Below, one piece after another: positions 380 through 63,598 of a stretch of 64,000 nt of DNA (position 1 is the stretch's first letter; the number at the start of each line of letters is the position of its first letter). The DNA is from Agapetus fuscipes (lineage: Eukaryota > Arthropoda > Insecta > Trichoptera > Glossosomatidae). The DNA is taken from the NCBI GenBank assembly GCA_951799405.1, contig OX637332.1, positions 29,736,832-29,800,831 on the forward strand, written 5' to 3'. The notes under the pieces are model-generated. The model saw only the letters and a program-made list of their open reading frames with translations, was not told the origin of the DNA and ran no database searches. The translations under genes were made by a program, and so were the position numbers.

Positions 380-615
380 TTACGAGCTTGATTGTTTTCC
401 TTGACTTATAAGTTGGTATGAGGCTGACCACCCATACTGTAAAAAATGGTTCACTTTGCCAATGTCACCCCTGTTTCAGGGAAGCTCGGCAAGAGTTGCA
501 GGGCTTATGTCCATTTGAGAATTGGGTTTTTATATTGCAGGTCCACATGCGGCATGTGTGAGCGCGAAATTATACGTGTCTGCTTGTGGGAATGCATTTA
601 ATATGAATCTTAAAT

Positions 616-775
616 ATATTTTGTATTGTTTGTGTATTAACCTTTTCTGTAATCAATAATCATACCTGATGATGACCTTCTAGGTCGAAAACGTTAGTAA
701 TTTGTTTAAAGATTTTAATCTTATTGAATAAATTTATCCGTGAAAATAAACAGTGTTTTTAATTAATCAAAAAAT
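616..775 (+). mobile_element. Repeat I element, 160 bp, with 14 bp target duplication
   Basis: Short AT-rich insertion inside repeat A, flanked by a perfect 14 bp duplication (TATGAATCTTAAAT, 602-615 and 776-789). It has no ORF. It carries GTGTATTAAC near the left end and AAACAGTGTTTTT near the right end, which recur in other copies (5196-5268, 25970-26015, 35935-36110). A hammerhead-like core lies at 666-699. Variable-length duplications and a ribozyme-like core are known from Penelope-like elements; that assignment is inference. Confidence 0.75.
666..699 (+). ncRNA. Hammerhead-ribozyme-like core
   Basis: CTGATGA (666-672), a 5 bp hairpin GACCT/AGGTC (674-678/682-686), then GAAA (687-690) and a palindromic AACGTT followed by A. 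This follows the hammerhead order CUGANGA, stem II, GAA, stem III, NUH. It departs from canon by one extra T (673) between the first core strand and stem II, and stem I is only about 3 bp. Activity is unproven. Confidence 0.45.
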
Positions 776-830
776 TATGAATCTTAAATGATACATATCC
801 TTGCAGCTTAGATTTAGATTTAGATTAGAT

Positions 831-1034
831 TGTCGTCGCTACAAAGCGCCAAGTCTCAAGCAAAAAACAGTTGCTGTAAGGCTGGATGGACCTTTGGTGA
901 CCGGTCATTGGTAAAGGTTTATGAATTTTTCAACCCAGCGAAGGGAAAATTTGAAAATATAAATGGTATATTTTTTGTGCTCCGCCGGGATTCGAACCCA
1001 CAACCGAAGTGTTACCACTGAAATACGGATCGGT
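831..1034 (-). mobile_element. SINE C copy lacking most of the tail
   Basis: On the minus strand: tRNA-like head with the B box GGGTTCGAATCCCGGCGGAGC, the spacer with GCTGGGTTGAAAAATTCATAAACC, and the GGTCCATCCAGCCTTACAGC body. It abuts the tail of the repeat A copy exactly. Confidence 0.8.
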
Positions 1035-1083
1035 CAAAAACTTCTATTCACTCATTTCACGATTTTTAATCTCAATACTATCC

Positions 1084-1261
1084 TATTTTTTAGTTTTGAT
1101 CTATTAACACAGTGAAAGTCCATTTTTAATTATTTAAAAATTCAAATGGGTAAGACCATTCTGCTCCTGAAGATGCCTCATTAGGCGAAAATTTTCGAGC
1201 ACAAAAAATAAATAAATAAGGGAATTAAAACTATGTTTTACCCACTTAAATTTTTAAATTT
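1084..1261 (+). mobile_element. Repeat I element, 178 bp, with 12 bp target duplication
   Basis: Flanked by a perfect 12 bp duplication TCAATACTATCC (1072-1083 and 1262-1273). Inside, a pair of inverted arms (about 1128-1155 and 1228-1258) brackets a hammerhead-like core at 1163-1200. It starts with a segment containing AACACAGTGAAAGTCC, which is shared with the copy near 7450. No ORF. Confidence 0.75.
1163..1200 (+). ncRNA. Hammerhead-ribozyme-like core with paired stem I
   Basis: Stem I GCTC (1163-1166) pairs with GAGC (1197-1200). CTGAAGA at 1167-1173, stem II GCCT/AGGC (1175-1178/1183-1186), GAA at 1187-1189, AATTTT as short stem III, and C at 1196 in the cleavage position (UUC). One extra T (1174) lies before stem II. 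This is the best folded example in the window. Confidence 0.5.
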
Positions 1262-1273
1262 TCAATACTATCC

Positions 1274-5142: not shown

Positions 5143-5500
5143 TGAAAGAAATCTATAATCCAAGTTGCAAAGATATATTAACATTTAAAATTCATGGTAT
5201 CTTTAACTAAATTATATAGTGAAAATAAACAGTGTTTTGTTTGAATTCATCCAAAAATTATAAAATGTTAAAATTTTAAATTCATATTAAATGCATGCCC
5301 ACAAACAGATACGTGTAAGTTCGCGCTTAAAAAACTCTACATGTGTGCTTGCAAATTAAATTCTAAACCTCAAATAGCAACAGAATTTTGCAACTCCTGC
5401 TGCCTTTTCTTGAAACCGGGGTGTCATTGGCAAAAATGAACCAATTTTATACAGCATTGGGGTCCTCCTCATACCAACCTTTTAGTCAAAGAACTGCCTT
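5143..5500 (-). mobile_element. Repeat A split by a repeat I fragment
   Basis: Minus-strand A, tail near 5155. It is interrupted at about 5196-5268 by a repeat I end; the sequence around TTTAAATTCAT is repeated on both sides with one mismatch. Confidence 0.75.
5196..5268 (+). mobile_element. Repeat I fragment (right end only)
   Basis: Contains GTGAAAATAAACAGTGTTTT and AATTCATCCAAAAATTAT, matching the right part of 616-775. The hammerhead-like core is absent, so the copy is truncated. An imperfect duplication of about 11 bp flanks it. Confidence 0.6.
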
Positions 5501-7082: not shown

Positions 7083-7182
7083 AGACTCGTAACTGGAAGG
7101 TCGTGGGTTCGAATCCTGGCGGAGCACAAAAAAAAATACAGTTTATGTTTTAAAATATGCTCCTCGCTGGGTTGAAAACATT

Positions 7183-7489
7183 TTATAAATATTTAAAAAT
7201 ATAAATGGTTAAACATTGTTTTAATTCACTTTATTTTATTTGTTTATGCTCGAATATTTTCGCCTAATGAGGCATCTTCAAGAGCAGAATGGTTACAAAT
7301 ATATTTTTATAAAATAATTTTCAAAACCATGTAACCATTCTGCTCTTGAAGATGCCTCATTAGGCGAAAATATTCGAGCATAAACAAATAAAATAAAGTG
7401 AATTAAAACAATGTTTAACCATTTATATTTTTAAATATTTATAAAAATGGACTTTCACTGTGTTAACAGATCAACACTAAAAAATATTA
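7183..7489. mobile_element. Palindromic repeat I element, 307 bp, 11 bp target duplication
   Basis: Flanked by TTGAAAACATT at 7172-7182 and 7490-7500. Arms of about 120 bp around 7320 are near-perfect inverted repeats, so each strand carries a hammerhead-like motif (minus 7248-7285, plus 7342-7379). It looks like two head-to-head copies of the 1084-1261 element. The right end shares TGGACTTTCACTGTGTTAAC in inverted form with that copy. Confidence 0.7.
7342..7379 (+). ncRNA. Hammerhead-like core, one substitution
   Basis: GCTC/GAGC stem I, TTGAAGA in place of CTGAAGA, GCCT/AGGC stem II, GAA and AATATT with C in the cleavage position. An inverted copy lies at 7248-7285. The C-to-T change at the first core base should impair activity. 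Confidence 0.35.
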
Positions 7490-7621
7490 TTGAAAACATT
7501 ATTATATATTATATACCTTTACGAAAAACCCGGCCACCAAAGGTCCATCTAGCCTTACAACAGCTGTGTCTTACTTGAGAATTGGCGCTATCTAAAGCGA
7601 CAATCGAGCTCTCCAGATATA

Positions 7622-22618: not shown

Positions 22619-22719
22619 GTAATAGAGACACACCATTTGTACCACATTTCATGAACTTGCTGTCTTATCTGTTTATTTGTTTAAATAAGAGTTTTAGGCT
22701 TACACGGCCGGCTGATGAT

Positions 22720-22917
22720 GCTGGAGTGATGATTTCCGGGATATGTTGCCGTGGTCTGTGGGAGCTGGAGCTTCCGGACGTTTCGCCCATTTCTACGATG
22801 GGCTTCTTCAGCGTGAAGTTTGATGAGGAAGATGACCTGGATGAGTACTGTGATGCAAGCGTGTACACTCGGGGTTTATATGTGGAAACTAAATACACTT
22901 TGCATACGAGTTTGTAG
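22720..22917 (-). mobile_element. Hairpin repeat (repeat I-like), copy in minus orientation
   Basis: On the minus strand: GTGTACACGCTTGCATCACAG, then CATCATCTTCC-type sequence, CTGAAGA, a 6 bp GCCCAT/ATGGGC hairpin, GAAACGTC and GGAAGCTCCAGCTCCCACAG. The same order is found on the plus strand at 23220-23392. Confidence 0.65.
22771..22818 (-). ncRNA. Hammerhead-like core
   Basis: Minus strand: CTGAAGA (22811-22805), hairpin GCCCAT/ATGGGC with an 8 nt loop, GAAA (22784-22781), palindromic ACGT and C as cleavage base (GUC). Flanks CTTCACG/CGGAAG can pair with one bulge. One extra A lies before stem II. Confidence 0.4.
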
Positions 22918-23060: not shown

Positions 23061-23067
23061 TCATAAA

Positions 23068-23215
23068 TATTTGATTAAAAAAATATTAATAAATCATTTT
23101 TAGAACACTTAAATGAAAAAACTTTGAAAAAATCCACTGTGAGTAGTGGATTAAAACAAAGTTTTTTCATTTAAGTGTTCTAAAAATTATTTATTAATAT
23201 TTTTTGAATCAAATA
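23068..23215. repeat. Long palindrome, arms about 65-70 bp
   Basis: AATATTTGATT...AAATCATTTTTAGAACACTT...AACTTTG...CCACT is mirrored on the other side of GTGAGT with few mismatches. It lies between the two inverted hairpin repeats. Confidence 0.85.
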
Positions 23216-23219
23216 TTTA

Positions 23220-23392
23220 AAATGGAATTCCACAATGTTTCACCAAAACAATTTGAAAAGTTATCTTCATCATCATACTTCAAGATGAAGAAGCCCATCG
23301 TAGAAATGGGCGAAACGTCCGAAAGCTCCAGCTCCCACAGACCACGGCAACAGATCCCGACAAACATCCCTCAAGCCTCTATTTGTTCCATT
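23220..23392 (+). mobile_element. Hairpin repeat (repeat I-like), plus orientation
   Basis: ATGAAGAAGCCCATCG, GAAATGGGCGAAACGTCCG and AGCTCCCACAGACCACGGCAAC, the inverted partner of 22720-22917. The core has ATGAAGA in place of CTGAAGA. Confidence 0.65.
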
Positions 23393-25240: not shown

Positions 25241-26031
25241 TAATAATGAAGAGAATAATTGTATAAGAGAATGATTTCATTTAAATATTTCAAAAAATGA
25301 TTTTATTGTAGTTATAAATGCATGATAATTTTCTTTCGTTTTTTAATCCATCGGTAATTTATTAAATTCTGTAAATCTAATGTAAATTAAGCTTCTTTGA
25401 ATTTTTGTGTCAAGTTTTGGCATTTGGTGATTTGTTTCTAATTTCAATTTTTGTTTTTCTTTAAAAATTTGCAATATTAATTTTTTTGTGATATATTTAA
25501 ATATTATATTGTGTACAATAAAACTCATATTTCACATCTTGTTAAAAGCGAACATGTCGCTTGCAAATTGTACTTGACTTTATTTCTTTTGATGGGACAA
25601 CAACATAACATTGTTAGAGAGAGCACCTCAGGTTCATTATTAATACTTGTCAAAGAGGATTATTCCTGTGGGCACAAAATTCAATTATTGTCGTATCTTG
25701 TCGTTTCCTTTCTTCTGCTTTGTTTTTTTTTTTCAAAAAAGACTTTAAAAATAAGTCTGGCTGAAATTCCAATGACTCGAGTGTCCACTTGACACACTAG
25801 AGTACAAGGTTTGAGTATCTATCGGAATGAATATCAAAACGGCCTTAAATTTTTTTTTTTTTTTAAGATGAAAATATTCTCAAATCAAATATTTTTTTTA
25901 TATATTCAACGCAACTAAAATACACATTAATAATAATAATAATAAAAATTATAAATTGAAACAAAATGAATTTTCACAGTGTTAATACACAAACAATACA
26001 AAATATAATAATAATAATATAAGGATGATTT
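25241..26031. other. AT-rich stretch with a repeat I end
   Basis: 25970-26015 shows inverted repeat I end words (TTTTCACAGTGTTAATACAC). A 93-codon plus ORF (25511-25792) has a hydrophobic run near its end but no recognised motif, and I do not call it a gene. Confidence 0.4.
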
Positions 26032-26430
26032 ATTTGGTGAGCGCTGTTTTTGTGTGTATCACACCTCAAGAGCCCTCTGCGAGCTTGGTCATCGCTGTAG
26101 AAAGCGCCAATTCTCAAGCAAGACCCAGTTGTTGTAAGGTTGGACGGACCTTTCAGTGACCGGTTTTTGGTAAGGGTTTATGAATTTTTCAACTCAGCGA
26201 AGAGCACTTTCGACATATAAATGGTATATTTTGTGCTCCGCCGGGGTCCGAATCCACAACCTTCCATTTACGAGTCCGAAGTGTTGTCACTGGACTACGG
26301 ACCGGTCCAAGATGCCAACGACACGCGGTGTACCTGAGCGGTAACCCATCCAAGTACTATCCGCGCCCAATGTTGCTTAACTTCGGTGATCTATGGGAAC
26401 CGGTGCTTTCAACATGGTAACGTCGTTGAC
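26032..26430 (-). mobile_element. Compound SINE C with 5S rRNA head and tail type 1
   Basis: On the minus strand, in order: a 5S rRNA-like unit (26430-26314), linker ATCTTGG, the SINE C tRNA-like head (about 26310-26237), body, and tail type 1 ending near 26032. The same 5S/tRNA junction occurs at 63273-63281, so this is a family structure. 5S-headed SINEs are the SINE3 class. Confidence 0.85.
26314..26430 (-). rRNA. 5S rRNA-derived segment (SINE head, not a functional gene)
   Basis: 117 bp aligned end to end with insect-type 5S: a CAACGAC-like start, CACCGAAGTTAAGCAACATTGG, a CTTGGATGGGTTACCGCTCAGG-like C-box region, and CACCGCGTGTCGTTGGC at the end. It is fused to a SINE and is best read as an internal Pol III promoter donor. 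Confidence 0.85.
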
Positions 26431-26555: not shown

Positions 26556-26774
26556 TATTCAGGTTTATATCCTAGTTTTTTTTTTCACCTTCTGATCAGC
26601 TTGTTCGTAAAGAACTGACTGACAGTTTTCTTTTTTTATTTGAAAAGTCTGAAATTTTCTTGAAAAACGTTTTTTTCTTTCACGGTTTGAGTTTAATTTC
26701 TCGAGCGCTTTCAACGTAGTACTAGCAAGTCATTTTCAAGCGAACAACTTCTTTTGAAAATAACGTGTTGATTC
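26556..26774. other. Spacer with a CTCGAGCGCTTTC word
   Basis: 26690-26720 resembles 13772-13795. No other feature. Confidence 0.35.
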
Positions 26775-31096: not shown

Positions 31097-32376
31097 CGAT
31101 CACAGGGTCTCTGATATTCAATCTGGTTTTATGCCAGGACGAGGTTGTGTGGACCAAATCTTTACTCTCAGATAGATTGTTGAAAAACATCTGGCTGTGG
31201 GGAGGGTGGTCTACGCAGCCTTCGTGGATCTCGAGAGGGCCTTTGACTCGGTGGACAGATGTATGTTGTGGAATGTTCTCAGGAAGTACGGTGTGAATGA
31301 CAACCTTCTGAATGTGATACGTGCCATCTATGAAAATAGTTCGGCATGTGTAAGAGTGGATGGGAGATATAGTGACTGGTTTGATGTATATAAGGGAGTG
31401 AGGCAAGGCTGCGTGATGAGTCCATGGTTGTTTAATATAATCATGGACAGTTGCATAAAAGAAGCTGGAATATCAGAGAGCGGAGTGAAAGTGGGTGAAA
31501 CAAGAGTTGGAGTACTTCTTTATGCTGATGATGCTATAGTTTTAGCTGACTCGGCGGAGGAACTCCAAGCGATGTTAACCAAACTGAATGATGCATTTTG
31601 TAAAACTAGCTTGAAAGTGAATGCGAATAAGACAAAAATATTAGTTTTTGACAGGAATGAAGTATGTGAGGAACTTACAGTTAATTTGAATGGAAAAAAA
31701 GTTGAAGTACTTAGTGAATGAGTTTGACTATTTAGGAAGCAAGTTTGAGGCGAATGGTAAGATGACGAAGGAATTAGAGAAGCGTGCCAGCAAAGGAAGA
31801 TGCGTGATAGGAGCGTTTGGTAGAATAGCGAAGAATAAAAGGATACCAAAGAAAATGAAAATGGCGGTACACAATTGTATATTGTTGCCGACCCTGATGT
31901 ATGGAAGCGAGTCATGGACGGTGAATGAAAGAGAAGTAAATAAGGTATGCACCGTAGAAATGGCTCATTTAAGAAGTATGACAGGAAAAACACTGAAAGA
32001 TAGAGTGAGAAACGAATGGGTTCTGAATGAATGCGGAGTAAAAGAAAGCGTGAAAGTGAAAGTTCAAAGAAGTGTGATGCGATGGTTTGGACATATTGAA
32101 AGGATGAATGAAGACCGACTGACAAAAAGAGTGTATAAAGGGAATGTAATAGGTAAGCGTGGAAGGGGAAGACCTAGAAAAGAATGGATTGATCAGATAA
32201 GTGAGATTGCGAATGAATGGAATTTACAGAGTGGAAACAAGAGAAGAGCATGCATGAAAAGAGTGATGAAATTAGATGAGATGAAAGAAGTATGCAGGGA
32301 CAGAGTCAAGTGGAGGCACTTATGTGGAGGTACTGGCCCCCCCTAGAGGAATGGCGGCAGGATACAAGACAAGACA
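31097..32376 (+). mobile_element. LINE D copy, 1.28 kb, (AAGAC)n tail, 6 bp duplication
   Basis: Inserted in repeat A with AGACAC on both sides (31091-31096, 32377-32382). The tail GACAAGACAAGAC is of the same sequence type as the target, consistent with target-primed priming on a matching word. The 3' UTR has the CCCTAGAGGAATGGCGGCAG form, not the A form. Confidence 0.85.
31197..32346 (+). pseudogene. LINE D reverse transcriptase fragment, one frameshift
   Basis: First frame (31197-31721) holds FVDLERAFDSVD, RQGCVMSPWLFN and LLYADDAIVL, the reverse transcriptase palm blocks A to C with the YADD catalytic motif. After a +1 shift near 31710 the frame continues (31690-32346) with YLGSKFE, MYGSESWTV, RWFGHIERM and GKRGRGRPRK, ending at a stop before CCCTAGAGG. 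The N-terminal endonuclease and the first RT blocks are absent. Confidence 0.85.
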
Positions 32377-35934: not shown

Positions 35935-36110
35935 AGAATTATTAATTATATATTGTATTGTTTGTGTATTAACACTGAAAATTTATGTTGATTAATAGAT
36001 TGTTTTTTTTTAAAGATTCGAATCAAACACTGTTTTATTTTTACTTCTATAATTTTTTTGATTTTTTTTTTCAAACGTTTTCGATTTACAATCATCGCCA
36101 GATAATAAAA
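35935..36110. mobile_element. Repeat I copy, degenerate core
   Basis: Starts TTGTATTGTTTGTGTATTAACAC like 616-640, has an inverted AACACTG/CAGTGTT-type pair, and on the minus strand ATCTGGCGATGATT...AATCGAAAACGTT, a decayed form of the hammerhead-like core. Confidence 0.55.
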
Positions 36111-52182: not shown

Positions 52183-53950
52183 AATCTATAATCTATAATC
52201 TAAGTTGCAAGGATATATTCATTTAAAGCTCTCAGATGTATGCCCACAAACCAACAAGTGTAGTTCGCGCTTACAAATGCTGAATGTGTACTTACAAATA
52301 AAATCCAAACCTCAAATGAACATAAGCCCCACAACTTTTGCCGACCTTCCCTGAAACAGGGGTGACATTGGCAAAGTGAACCATTTTTTACAGTATGGGT
52401 GGTCAGCCTCATACCAACCTATAAGTCAAGGAATATGAATAATAAATTACATTTAAATATAAAAAAGAACAAAACCTTACAAAGAAATCTATACAAAAAA
52501 AAGTCAAAAATTTCCTATGCAAAAAATGTAGCAAATGAATACACCAACATTAGAAATCAACATTGCAGATTAGCCGCCACTTCTTCCTGTCCTTGCATAC
52601 TTCTTTCATTTCATCCAGAGTCATAACCTTTTTCATACAAGTCCTCCTTTTATTATGACTCTGGATATCCCAGTCATTCGCTATTTCAGAGATTTGATCC
52701 TTCCATACTTTTCTCGGTCTTCCTCTACCACGACATCCATCTATTCTAGCAACATATACTTTCTTCGTCAATCTTTCATCACTCATTCTCTCCAAATGCC
52801 CGAACCATCTTAACATACTTCTTTTAATCTTCACTTTCACACTTTCCCTTACACCACATTCTTCTCTTACAAAATCATTTCTCACCCTGTCACTTCGTTT
52901 TTTCCCAATCATACTTCTTAGATAGTCCATTTCTACTGTATGGACTTTACTAATTTCCCTTTCACTCACCGTCCAGGCTTCACTTCCATACATCAAGGTT
53001 GGCACTAGTATACCACCGTGCACCGCCAATCTAACATTTTTTGAGAGATTTTGGTTCCTGGCGATGCAAGCGGTCGCACCCAGTACACACCTGCCTTTCA
53101 TTATTCTTCTTTCAAATTCACCGGCCATTCTTCCATCTTTTTCAAACTTACTTCCCAAATATACAAACTCATTTACGACATCAACATTCATTCCATTAAT
53201 TTTAAATTCATAATTCATATTTTCATCATCTCTTTCAAAAATCAAAACTTTCGTCTTTCTTGCATTCAACTTCAAATTATTACCTTTCAAAGCTTCGTTC
53301 AATCTAGAGAGCATCATTTGCAATTCCACTGCTGAATCAGATACAAGGACTGCATCATCCGCATACAGTAGAACGCTTACTTTGCTCTCTCCTATCATTA
53401 ATCCACAATCATCAAGTCTAGCATCTCGAACACACTTGTCCATGACTATGTTAAATAGCCATGGGCTCATCACACATCCTTGCCTTACACCCTTAAAAAC
53501 TTCAAACCATTCACTATACTCACCATCAATACGAATGCAAGCCATACTATTCTCATAGTTCGCATGCACCGCATTGAGTAGAGCTCCATTCACTACGTAT
53601 GCTTTCAAAACATCCCACAACATACCTCTGTCCACTGAGTCAAAAGCCTTTTCCAGATCCACAAAGGCCGTGAATAGTTTCCCCCTCACCGACAATTGTT
53701 TTTCAACAAGTTGTCGTAGAGTGAAAATCTGATCAACACAGCCTCTACCGGCCATAAAGCCGGACTGTATATCGGAAACCCTTTTGCTAGTAGTCAGAAT
53801 CACATTTTTTATAATCACCTTACAGAAGACTTTTCCTGGTATACTGAGTAGACTGATTGGTCTGAAGTTCTGACAGTCTTTTTTGTCCCCTTTACCTTTG
53901 TAAATGGGAACAATGACTGCCTTCCTCCAATCCATCGGTACCACTATAAT
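52183..53950 (-). mobile_element. LINE D, longest copy, with repeat A as its 3' end
   Basis: Minus strand: ORF, UTR of about 130 bp, repeat A (52435-52200) and (TATAATC)n tail (52200-52183). The 5' edge is near 53950, where the reverse transcriptase frame begins abruptly. This copy defines the relation between A and LINE D. Confidence 0.85.
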
Positions 53951-53998
53951 ATCTATGTAAATATCTATGTAACGGAGAAATTGAACGTTAATGTTCAC
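52550..53998 (-). CDS. LINE D reverse transcriptase, 482-residue open frame, 5' truncated
   Basis: RNA-directed DNA polymerase of an RTE-like LINE, which would copy element RNA at a nicked target. Visible blocks: NFRPISLL (44-51), FVDLEKAFDSVD (112-123), RQGCVMSPWLFN (172-183), catalytic YADD (212-215), LGSKFE (281-286), MYGSEAWT (336-343), RWFGHLERM (397-405), GRGRPRK (424-430). The N-terminal endonuclease is missing; the first 20 or so residues are probably fused flanking sequence. No stop or frameshift in the rest, so the insertion is fairly young. Clade assignment is by motif style only. Confidence 0.85.
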   Translation of the reverse strand: MNINVQFLRYIDIYIDIIVVPMDWRKAVIVPIYKGKGDKKDCQNFRPISLLSIPGKVFCKVIIKNVILTTSKRVSDIQSGFMAGRGCVDQIFTLRQLVEKQLSVRGKLFTAFVDLEKAFDSVDRGMLWDVLKAYVVNGALLNAVHANYENSMACIRIDGEYSEWFEVFKGVRQGCVMSPWLFNIVMDKCVRDARLDDCGLMIGESKVSVLLYADDAVLVSDSAVELQMMLSRLNEALKGNNLKLNARKTKVLIFERDDENMNYEFKINGMNVDVVNEFVYLGSKFEKDGRMAGEFERRIMKGRCVLGATACIARNQNLSKNVRLAVHGGILVPTLMYGSEAWTVSEREISKVHTVEMDYLRSMIGKKRSDRVRNDFVREECGVRESVKVKIKRSMLRWFGHLERMSDERLTKKVYVARIDGCRGRGRPRKVWKDQISEIANDWDIQSHNKRRTCMKKVMTLDEMKEVCKDRKKWRLICNVDF

Positions 53999-54265
53999 TT
54001 GTTCCCACTAAAATAATGGCCATGAGTGAGTATATAAAGGCCTAATTTTTATTTTACGGTTATAAAAGATACTATGACATCCAATGACAACAGTCAAAAT
54101 CTGTGGTCAAAATGGTGCAAGGGGGTATTTTGTTTTACTGTTTCTTACACCAAATGTTCGGCATTTGAACCGAATTTAAGCCCAATTCCGAAATTAGGTT
54201 CAAGCTGCCGAAATTCGGTTTTAAACCGAATGTTAAACGAATTTCGGCCCATCCCTACAAATAAT

Positions 54266-59437: not shown

Positions 59438-59665
59438 CGAGATGTAAGCGCGAACTTACACGTGTCTGTTTGTGGGCATGCATTTAATGTGATTTTTTTT
59501 TTATAAACTCAATAGAAAAAAAAAGTTTTCATTCACTTTTATTTATTTTGTAGCTCAAACATATTCGCAAAATAAGGCATCTTCAGAAGAATAATTGTTA
59601 CAAATATTTTTACTTTAGTTTTGAATTTTAAATGTTCATGTATCTTTGCAACTTAGATTATAGAA
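59438..59665 (+). mobile_element. Repeat A right half split by a repeat I fragment
   Basis: TGTAAGCGCGAACTTACACG to GCATTTAATG, then a repeat I piece (about 59495-59620). That piece carries, on the minus strand, CTGAAGATGCCTTATTTTGCG, a decayed hammerhead-like core. A resumes with AATTTTAAATGTTCATG. Confidence 0.65.
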
Positions 59666-63155: not shown

Positions 63156-63273
63156 GTCAACGACGTTAGCCATGTTGAAAGCACCGGTTCCCATAGATCA
63201 CCGAAGTTAAGCAACATTGGGCGTGGTCAGTGCTTGGATGGGTAACCGCTCAGGTACACCGCGTGTCGTTGGC
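63156..63273 (+). rRNA. 5S rRNA-derived segment (SINE head, not a functional gene)
   Basis: 118 bp covering the whole 5S length. It has CACCGAAGTTAAGCAACATT (A-box and loop region), GTGCTTGGATGGGTAACCGC (C box) and ACCGCGTGTCGTTGGC (3' end), with complementary ends. It reads straight into the SINE head without a T-run terminator. Confidence 0.88.
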
Positions 63274-63598
63274 ATCTTGGACCGGTCCGTAGTCCGTAGT
63301 GGCAACACTTCGGACTCGTAAATGGAAGGTTGTGGATTCGGATCCCGGCGGAGCACAAAAATATACCATTCATATTTCGAATGTGCTCTTCGCTGGGTTG
63401 AAAAATTCATAAACCTTTACCAATGACCAGTCACCAAAGGTCCATCCAGCCTTACAGCAACTGGGTCTTGCTTGAGTATTGGCGCTTTGTAGCGACGACC
63501 AAGCTCGTACACCTCTGCGGCACTACAACAAGTGTCATAGACCCCTAGAGTCTTTAGAATCTAGGGAGTCTCCCGCACAGGATTTCTTAAAAAAAAAA
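63156..63598 (+). mobile_element. Compound SINE C with 5S rRNA head and tail type 2
   Basis: In order: 5S-like unit (63156-63273), linker ATCTTGG, tRNA-like head with GGATTCGGATCCCGGCGGAGC (about 63281-63356), spacer, body, tail type 2 with AGTCTTTAGAATCTAGGGAG, and poly-A at 63588-63604. It has the same junction as 26314-26310 on the minus strand but a different tail. Confidence 0.9.

Follow-up and report, generated by a model that had tools for sequence, protein, structure and literature searches.

Results

Organization of the short insertions

The window, by which we mean the whole stretch of 64,000 nt analysed here, looks like animal-type DNA with many SINEs and retroelement fragments. 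Two short insertions, elements A and B, lie near its beginning and are organized as follows:

602..615, no strand: left copy of the 14-bp target duplication of A, TATGAATCTTAAAT (empty sites in other SINE copies)
616..775, plus strand: element A, a probable 5′-truncated end of Penelope-like element (PLE) type, with the hammerhead in sense on the plus strand
616..642, minus strand: left end of A, an inverted AC-rich tail of 27 nt (BLAST)
776..789, no strand: right copy of the 14-bp target duplication of A (repeat search)
1072..1083, no strand: left copy of the 12-bp target duplication of B, TCAATACTATCC (both-strand search)
1084..1261, plus strand: element B, composed of an inverted tail, an inverted 3′-end piece and then a direct hammerhead arm
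1084..1130, minus strand: left end of B, an inverted AC-rich tail (BLAST)
1132..1156, minus strand: inverted copy of B's own 3′ end, pairing with 1235-1259 (88% over 25 nt)
1262..1273, no strand: right copy of the 12-bp target duplication of B (both-strand search)

The preliminary description had placed both insertions at these positions, each between perfect flanking repeats, and both placements hold. For A, TATGAATCTTAAAT was confined to 602-615 and 776-789 when both strands of the window were searched, and a 14-bp pair at a spacing of 140-330 bp is expected by chance 0.05 times per 64 kb. After joining the SINE flanks of A, 35 of 60 BLAST pieces ran across the site, and because such uninterrupted SINE copies (empty sites) occur elsewhere in the window, A is a genuine insertion flanked by a 14-bp target duplication. 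Its inverted arm is reduced to 27 nt, and BLAST found the tail again in two places, with 615-641 identical to 26007-25981 (27/27) and 610-641 matching 35942-35973 at 93.75% identity. For B, TCAATACTATCC was likewise confined to 1072-1083 and 1262-1273 on both strands of the window, this pair being missing from the repeat-finder list that contained the 14-bp pair of A. Pairs of 12 bp at a spacing of 140-330 bp are expected 2.6 times per 64 kb and were observed 126 times in this repeat-rich window, so the duplication of B alone proves nothing. The boundaries of B are nevertheless credible, because a third insertion, element D, starts and stops at the corresponding element positions beside its own 11-bp duplication. 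BLAST of the joined flanks gave no empty site for B in the window, since the lone crossing piece was the right flank of B itself. BLAST further matched 1084-1153 of B to 7486-7415, within D, at 88.9% identity, and 1076-1126 to 26013-25963 at 76.5%.

Element D has the most complete two-armed structure:

7172-7182 and 7490-7500, no strand: 11-bp target duplication of D, TTGAAAACATT (flank search)
7183..7489, minus strand: element D, a head-to-head pair of B-type arms inside a second SINE family
7181..7296, minus strand: direct arm of D, with a motif from 7281 (core TTGAAGA), stopping at the proximal end point
7331..7446, plus strand: inverted arm of D, with a motif from 7346 (core TTGAAGA; alignment to the other arm)
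7447..7489, plus strand: tail of D, 43 nt, on the inverted arm only (arm alignment)

The two arms agree at 116 of 116 nt, beyond which the inverted arm alone runs on for the 43 nt of the tail, and the final 2 nt of the direct arm overlap the target duplication. D thus forms an almost perfect palindrome, with 34 nt left unpaired at its centre, and its empty site is represented by 8 of 12 BLAST pieces that cross the joined flanks of the second SINE family. Matches to microRNA families at 7236-7391 stayed below their gathering scores and were rejected, as they arise from this long palindrome.

Further relatives were recognized at five loci:

5197..5272, plus strand: element H, an A-type 3′-end fragment of 76 nt without a core, at A's SINE position
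22717..22836, minus strand: arm of element C with a minimal hammerhead-like motif (CTGAAGA, A, a 6-bp stem, GAA, ACGT, C)
23260-23379, inverted: inverted partner of the C arm, 89% over 120 nt (BLAST)
25957..26009, plus strand: element E, the tail region of a further copy (BLAST to the tails of A, B and D)
35946..36108, minus strand: element F, A-type, its core decayed to CTGGCGA, with its end at the distal (tail) point
59502..59619, minus strand: element G, B-type, with a decayed motif, at A's SINE position

According to BLAST, the B-type group comprises B, both arms of D, and G (1155-1239 against 59598-59517, 77.6%, E 2.2e-12). In the A-type group, A matches H (729-788 against 5208-5272, 80%, E 1.5e-8), and the tail of A links F and E. 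Profile searches agree with these groupings, but the profiles derive from these very copies, which makes the scores of the copies circular, and BLAST was relied upon; a borderline profile match at 26654-26746 (E 0.022) looked unrelated on inspection. The tail of F was placed by BLAST and its arm, with no BLAST match among those listed, was assigned to the A-type through alignment and motif; by eye, F has no convincing target duplication. The boundaries of G were fixed by the SINE register within a T-rich stretch. For C, a search for a target duplication found none, and its arms gave no match to A or B among the BLAST matches listed in the window self-comparison; the palindrome situated between the C arms shows a weak match to D (75% over 64 nt, E 0.001). 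This palindrome, separate from the arms, measures 156 nt and lies at 23064-23219.

Arms, tails and end points

Read in the sense of the hammerhead, a direct arm consists of an upstream piece, the motif and about 60-80 nt leading to the proximal end point. In all three two-armed insertions (A, B and D), the inverted arm with its AC-rich tail reaches a distal point, and the direct arm stops at the proximal one. In the alignment, A, B, D, E and F reach the same distal end to within a few nt; the proximal ends are looser, with A, B, D and G agreeing to about 10 nt by eye. Among the remaining copies, F and E end at the distal point, and an inverted arm is absent from G, H and F. The tail is common to A, B, D, E and F and measures about 35-50 nt overall by eye. 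A 4-bp hairpin appeared in the four tails folded, weak in comparison with shuffled sequences (z -0.18, -1.60, 0.60 and -1.22). An ATG is present at the tail in D, B and E, with too few codons to be judged as the start of an ORF.

A shared position within one SINE

Elements A, H and G are inserted at the identical position in independent copies of one SINE, whose span is about 263 bp as measured in one copy. Their flanking duplications are:

602-615/776-789: A, 14/14 matching
5183-5196/5273-5286: H, 12/14 matching
59488-59501/59620-59633: G, 9/14 matching

These matches were counted by eye. Relative to the SINE, A is in sense orientation and H and G are antisense. When the SINE halves were paired separately, 46 left halves were found, of which 25 were empty, with the right half 9-24 nt off, and 3 were occupied by PLE-type pieces (A, H and G); the other 18, in which the right half was absent or distant, were assigned to neither class. 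Eight of the 25 empty copies carry a shorter variant of the site, resembling GAGCTTTAAA. Element F lies near the 3′ end of another SINE copy, so the site is not used by every insertion near this SINE. In the one copy examined, 94 of 250 14-bp SINE windows were at least as AT-rich as the site, which was itself spotted after the fact; therefore, AT content alone does not single it out.

At 26313-26430 (minus strand) and 63156-63274 (plus strand), 5S rRNA-like matches exceed the Rfam gathering score. Both are situated immediately upstream of, and collinear with, a copy of the second SINE family (832-1005 type), and possibly represent a 5S-derived SINE head.

The hammerhead-like motif

The motifs of A and B were parsed as follows:

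660..702, plus strand: motif of A, with stem I of 3 bp, CTGATGA at 666-672, extra T at 673, stem II at 674-678/682-686, GAA at 687-689, AACGTT at 690-695 and predicted cleavage at 696/697
1161..1202, plus strand: motif of B, with stem I at 1162-1166/1197-1201, CTGAAGA at 1167-1173, extra T at 1174, stem II at 1175-1178/1183-1186, GAA at 1187-1189, AATTTT at 1190-1195 and predicted cleavage at 1196/1197

The cores thus read CTGATGA+T+GACCT/AGGTC+GAA+AACGTT+A (666-696) and CTGAAGA+T+GCCT/AGGC+GAA+AATTTT+C (1167-1196). Initially, both elements had been described as carrying CTGANGA, a hairpin, GAA and a palindromic stem III; the cores are indeed there in both, and the palindrome exists in A but not in B. 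Stem I of B, first given as GCTC/GAGC, measures 5 bp as parsed. Markov simulations (30 runs) put the expectation for a pattern of [C/T]TGANGA followed by 0-2 bases, a stem of at least 4 pairs and GAA at 0.1 per strand per 64 kb, and the pattern was observed five times on the two strands, at four loci, namely A, B, the two arms of D, and C.

The parse covered seven motif copies, from A, B, D (the identical arms counted as one), F, G, and the right and left arms of C. Four of them (A, B, G and C right) have an unaltered core, stem II of G being only 2 bp long; D has C3 changed to U (a U-G pair remains), F has A6 changed to G, and C left has C3 changed to A. CTGANGA, GAA and a stem II of at least 4 pairs are kept together in three of the seven (A, B and C right). 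Unbroken stem I at the core amounts to 5 bp in B and D, 3 in A and G, 2 in C right, and 1 in F and C left, and stem III is palindromic in A, D (AATATT), F and C, G resembling B in lacking the palindrome. The placement of the motif is similar in the A-type and B-type groups. Stem II pairs in the same way with differing sequences in five groups (GACCT/AGGTC, GCCT/AGGC, GAT/ATC, GC/GC and GCCCAT/ATGGGC), but a formal covariation test, as proposed at the outset, would require more groups, and less closely related ones. Another of the proposed checks, with the Rfam hammerhead models, matched no hammerhead family, either in the whole window at E up to 1 or in 560-1300 at E up to 10. In the minimum-energy folds of the monomers, stem II forms in both A and B, and stem I also in B, and the core pairs with the stem III stretch; 3 of 200 shuffled sequences folded as well as B, and 32 of 200 as well as A.

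One extra base stands between the CUGANGA box and stem II in all seven copies, as the preliminary description had noted, being T in A, B, D, F and G and A in both C arms. It had been put forward as a caveat, and its weight as an objection is eased by the plus hammerhead of Chrysanthemum chlorotic mottle viroid, for which PMC3705267 describes an extra A10 between A9 and G10.1. There, A10 moderately slows the trans-cleaving form, U at the same position speeds it 3-4 fold, and C or G is strongly harmful (PMC3705267). The extra bases in the window occupy this A10 position and are only U or A, the identities tolerated in the viroid, so the earlier caveat becomes a point mildly in favour; the difference is that the viroid has a full hammerhead, whereas the motif described here belongs to a retroelement.

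Among viral contigs, a pattern scan matched 25 loci, all scored for stem II, which reached 4-7 pairs in four (L002, L004, L017 and L019); ORFs of at least 150 aa were listed for those four. In L002, L004 and L019, which read by eye as phage contigs, the match falls inside or at the edge of a reading frame, and in L017 no ORF of at least 150 aa lies at the match. These matches were taken as chance, and further scans of viral contigs and prokaryote genomes yielded no recognisable relative.

Reverse transcriptase reading frames

Ten of the 35 window ORFs (at least 110 aa) were scanned for domains. The GIY-YIG endonuclease, which in PLEs accompanies a telomerase-like reverse transcriptase, was absent from these ten, no PLE polymerase was recognized among them, and two matched RVT_1, a general reverse transcriptase family:

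31176-31718, plus strand: RVT_1 reading frame (domain scan)
52553-54007, minus strand: RVT_1 reading frame, open over 485 aa (domain scan)

Discussion

The anatomy described above makes it highly probable (roughly 0.85) that A and B are short 5′-truncated PLE insertions, holding the end with the minimal hammerhead and little else. This identity is based on the minimal hammerhead motif, the inverted, head-to-head arms (seen in D, B and C), the one-sided AC-rich tail, and the duplications of 14 bp in A, 12 bp in B and 11 bp in D, all at AT-rich sites. Counting against it are the ten scanned ORFs with neither a PLE polymerase nor a GIY-YIG domain, the negative Rfam result for hammerheads, the small share of motif copies (three of seven) combining intact core, GAA and a stem II of at least 4 pairs, the monomer folds in which the core is paired, and the weak tail hairpins. 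Of the two origins suggested in the preliminary description, solo PLE ends are thus favoured by comparison with published elements (PMC3846280, PMC11167929), and a new ribozyme-bearing family of SINE size, though it keeps some probability, is not needed.

In regard to known systems, PMC3846280 describes Pen2a/Pen2 Penelope elements of Adineta vaga with direct and inverted pLTRs, palindromes at the inverted junctions, duplications of 9 and 10 bp in some copies and none in others, and an optional 31-bp tail at the 3′ end of one inverted pLTR. The insertions in our window share the head-to-head pLTRs, the short duplications, the one-sided tail and the 5′ truncation. They differ in consisting of ends only, without an ORF, in having the tail on the inverted arm in 3/3 two-armed cases, and in the length of the duplications (11-14 bp). 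A second comparison is offered by Poseidon of Anolis carolinensis (PAc), for which PMC11167929 reports that reverse transcription begins inside the RNA, at an AC-rich stem-loop, that the two reverse transcription start sites delimit the tail, and that the enzyme cuts and extends both target strands at AT-rich DNA. The PAc hammerhead is located at the pLTR/ORF junction, requires protein for its cleavage and is dispensable for insertion in vitro (PMC11167929). The AC-rich tail, the two proposed start points, the AT-rich cut site and the hammerhead near the pLTR end are all paralleled here; unlike PAc, where the ORF begins at stem II, the stem II ATG of A and B reaches TAG after two more codons. 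Finally, the motif resembles the small PLE hammerhead variants, minimal type I motifs with little or palindromic stem III, which are present in thousands of dispersed copies in animals and may cleave as dimers (Cervera and de la Pena 2014; Lunse et al. 2017, via PMC7761336, PMC6466107).

Within the PLE reading, a variant with overlapping odds would be a SINE-like, non-autonomous family that descends from a PLE end and propagates as its own short unit, moved in trans. As such a family would have it, the copies delimited in the window are small, from 76 to about 307 nt, and the 10 of 35 window ORFs scanned gave no PLE reading frame next to them. However, the starts of the direct arms and the internal junctions vary by eye among A, B and D, as truncation would produce and a fixed unit would not, which leaves this variant improbable, if worth keeping in mind.

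Another process within the PLE reading is the formation of inverted arms by snap-back self-priming of one template, which the authors of PMC3846280 prefer for bdelloid Penelope. The near-perfect palindrome of D with its short unpaired centre is what such a process could leave behind, and palindromes at PLE junctions have been published (PMC3846280). Yet an arm copied from itself should have the same outer end as its template, whereas the outer ends are unequal in 3/3 insertions, with the tail on the inverted arm only, and cluster at two discrete regions common to both groups. We consequently regard snap-back as a minority possibility, and the unequal arm ends of A, B and D suggest two separate reverse-transcription starts.

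Two readings outside PLE transposition fare far worse. Animal non-LTR retrozymes, which are non-autonomous, carry type I hammerheads and spread in the form of circular RNAs, are similarly small, AT-rich and hammerhead-bearing, and 150-450 bp repeats of low GC content with duplications of more than 4 bp have been reported (PMC7229834). Nevertheless, they are described there as tandem direct repeats with canonical hammerheads, features not seen in the window, where no head-to-tail tandem of A or B occurs among the self-comparison matches listed, the arms face each other in inverted orientation, the motif is a minimal one that lacks a stable helix III, and the element ends lie away from the predicted cleavage site, making such an origin very improbable. 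Slimmer still is the chance that the motif arose by accident in AT-rich, MITE-like inverted-repeat DNA elements with no hammerhead history, to which the inverted arms of B and D, the missing Rfam match and the several mutated cores could point, but against which stand five core matches at four loci versus 0.2 expected on both strands, the similar motif position in both groups, and termini that form no inverted repeat and carry an extra tail on one arm.

Returning to PLE insertion, A, B and D could have been made by two-ended priming with two start points, a mechanism to which, taken as a whole, we give about even odds. A PLE protein would cut an AT-rich site with a stagger of 11-14 bp, whereupon one target strand would prime reverse transcription at the proximal start, producing the direct arm, and the other strand would prime at the distal start, about 35-50 nt further, producing the inverted arm with its tail. 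The two cDNAs, extended to variable lengths, would then be joined head to head. The hammerhead motif would be carried along with the template RNA and may act as a dimer in the processing of tandem transcripts. Insertion does not appear to depend on intact cleavage: since both D arms have C3 changed to U, either the template was already changed or the arms were homogenised by conversion.

A stricter version can also be proposed, more tentatively. It sees the two-armed insertions as frozen records of two-ended target-primed reverse transcription by a PLE, with strand-specific starts placing the tail always on the inverted arm, with an enzyme preferring one 14-bp SINE sequence, hit three times independently, and with a core already broken in the template of D, so that cleavage would be dispensable in vivo. 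All of these points holding together is rather doubtful; against a strict strand rule, there are only three two-armed insertions, and the start site did not differ between strands in PMC11167929.

Dispersed minimal hammerheads and PLE ends are widespread in animals (PMC7761336), and A and B are ordinary in kind; what is of interest is the asymmetry of the end points, the position-10 base and the hot spot within the SINE. The restriction of the position-10 base to A or U provides a testable reason why such cores could work even though standard models miss them, and if the template of D already carried the C3 to U change, an intact core was not required for insertion. The way in which PLE insertions are completed is unsettled, self-priming (PMC3846280) and internal initiation (PMC11167929) both having been proposed. 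Short copies that preserve both ends, empty sites and differing arm end points make these models separable by counting copies in one genome.
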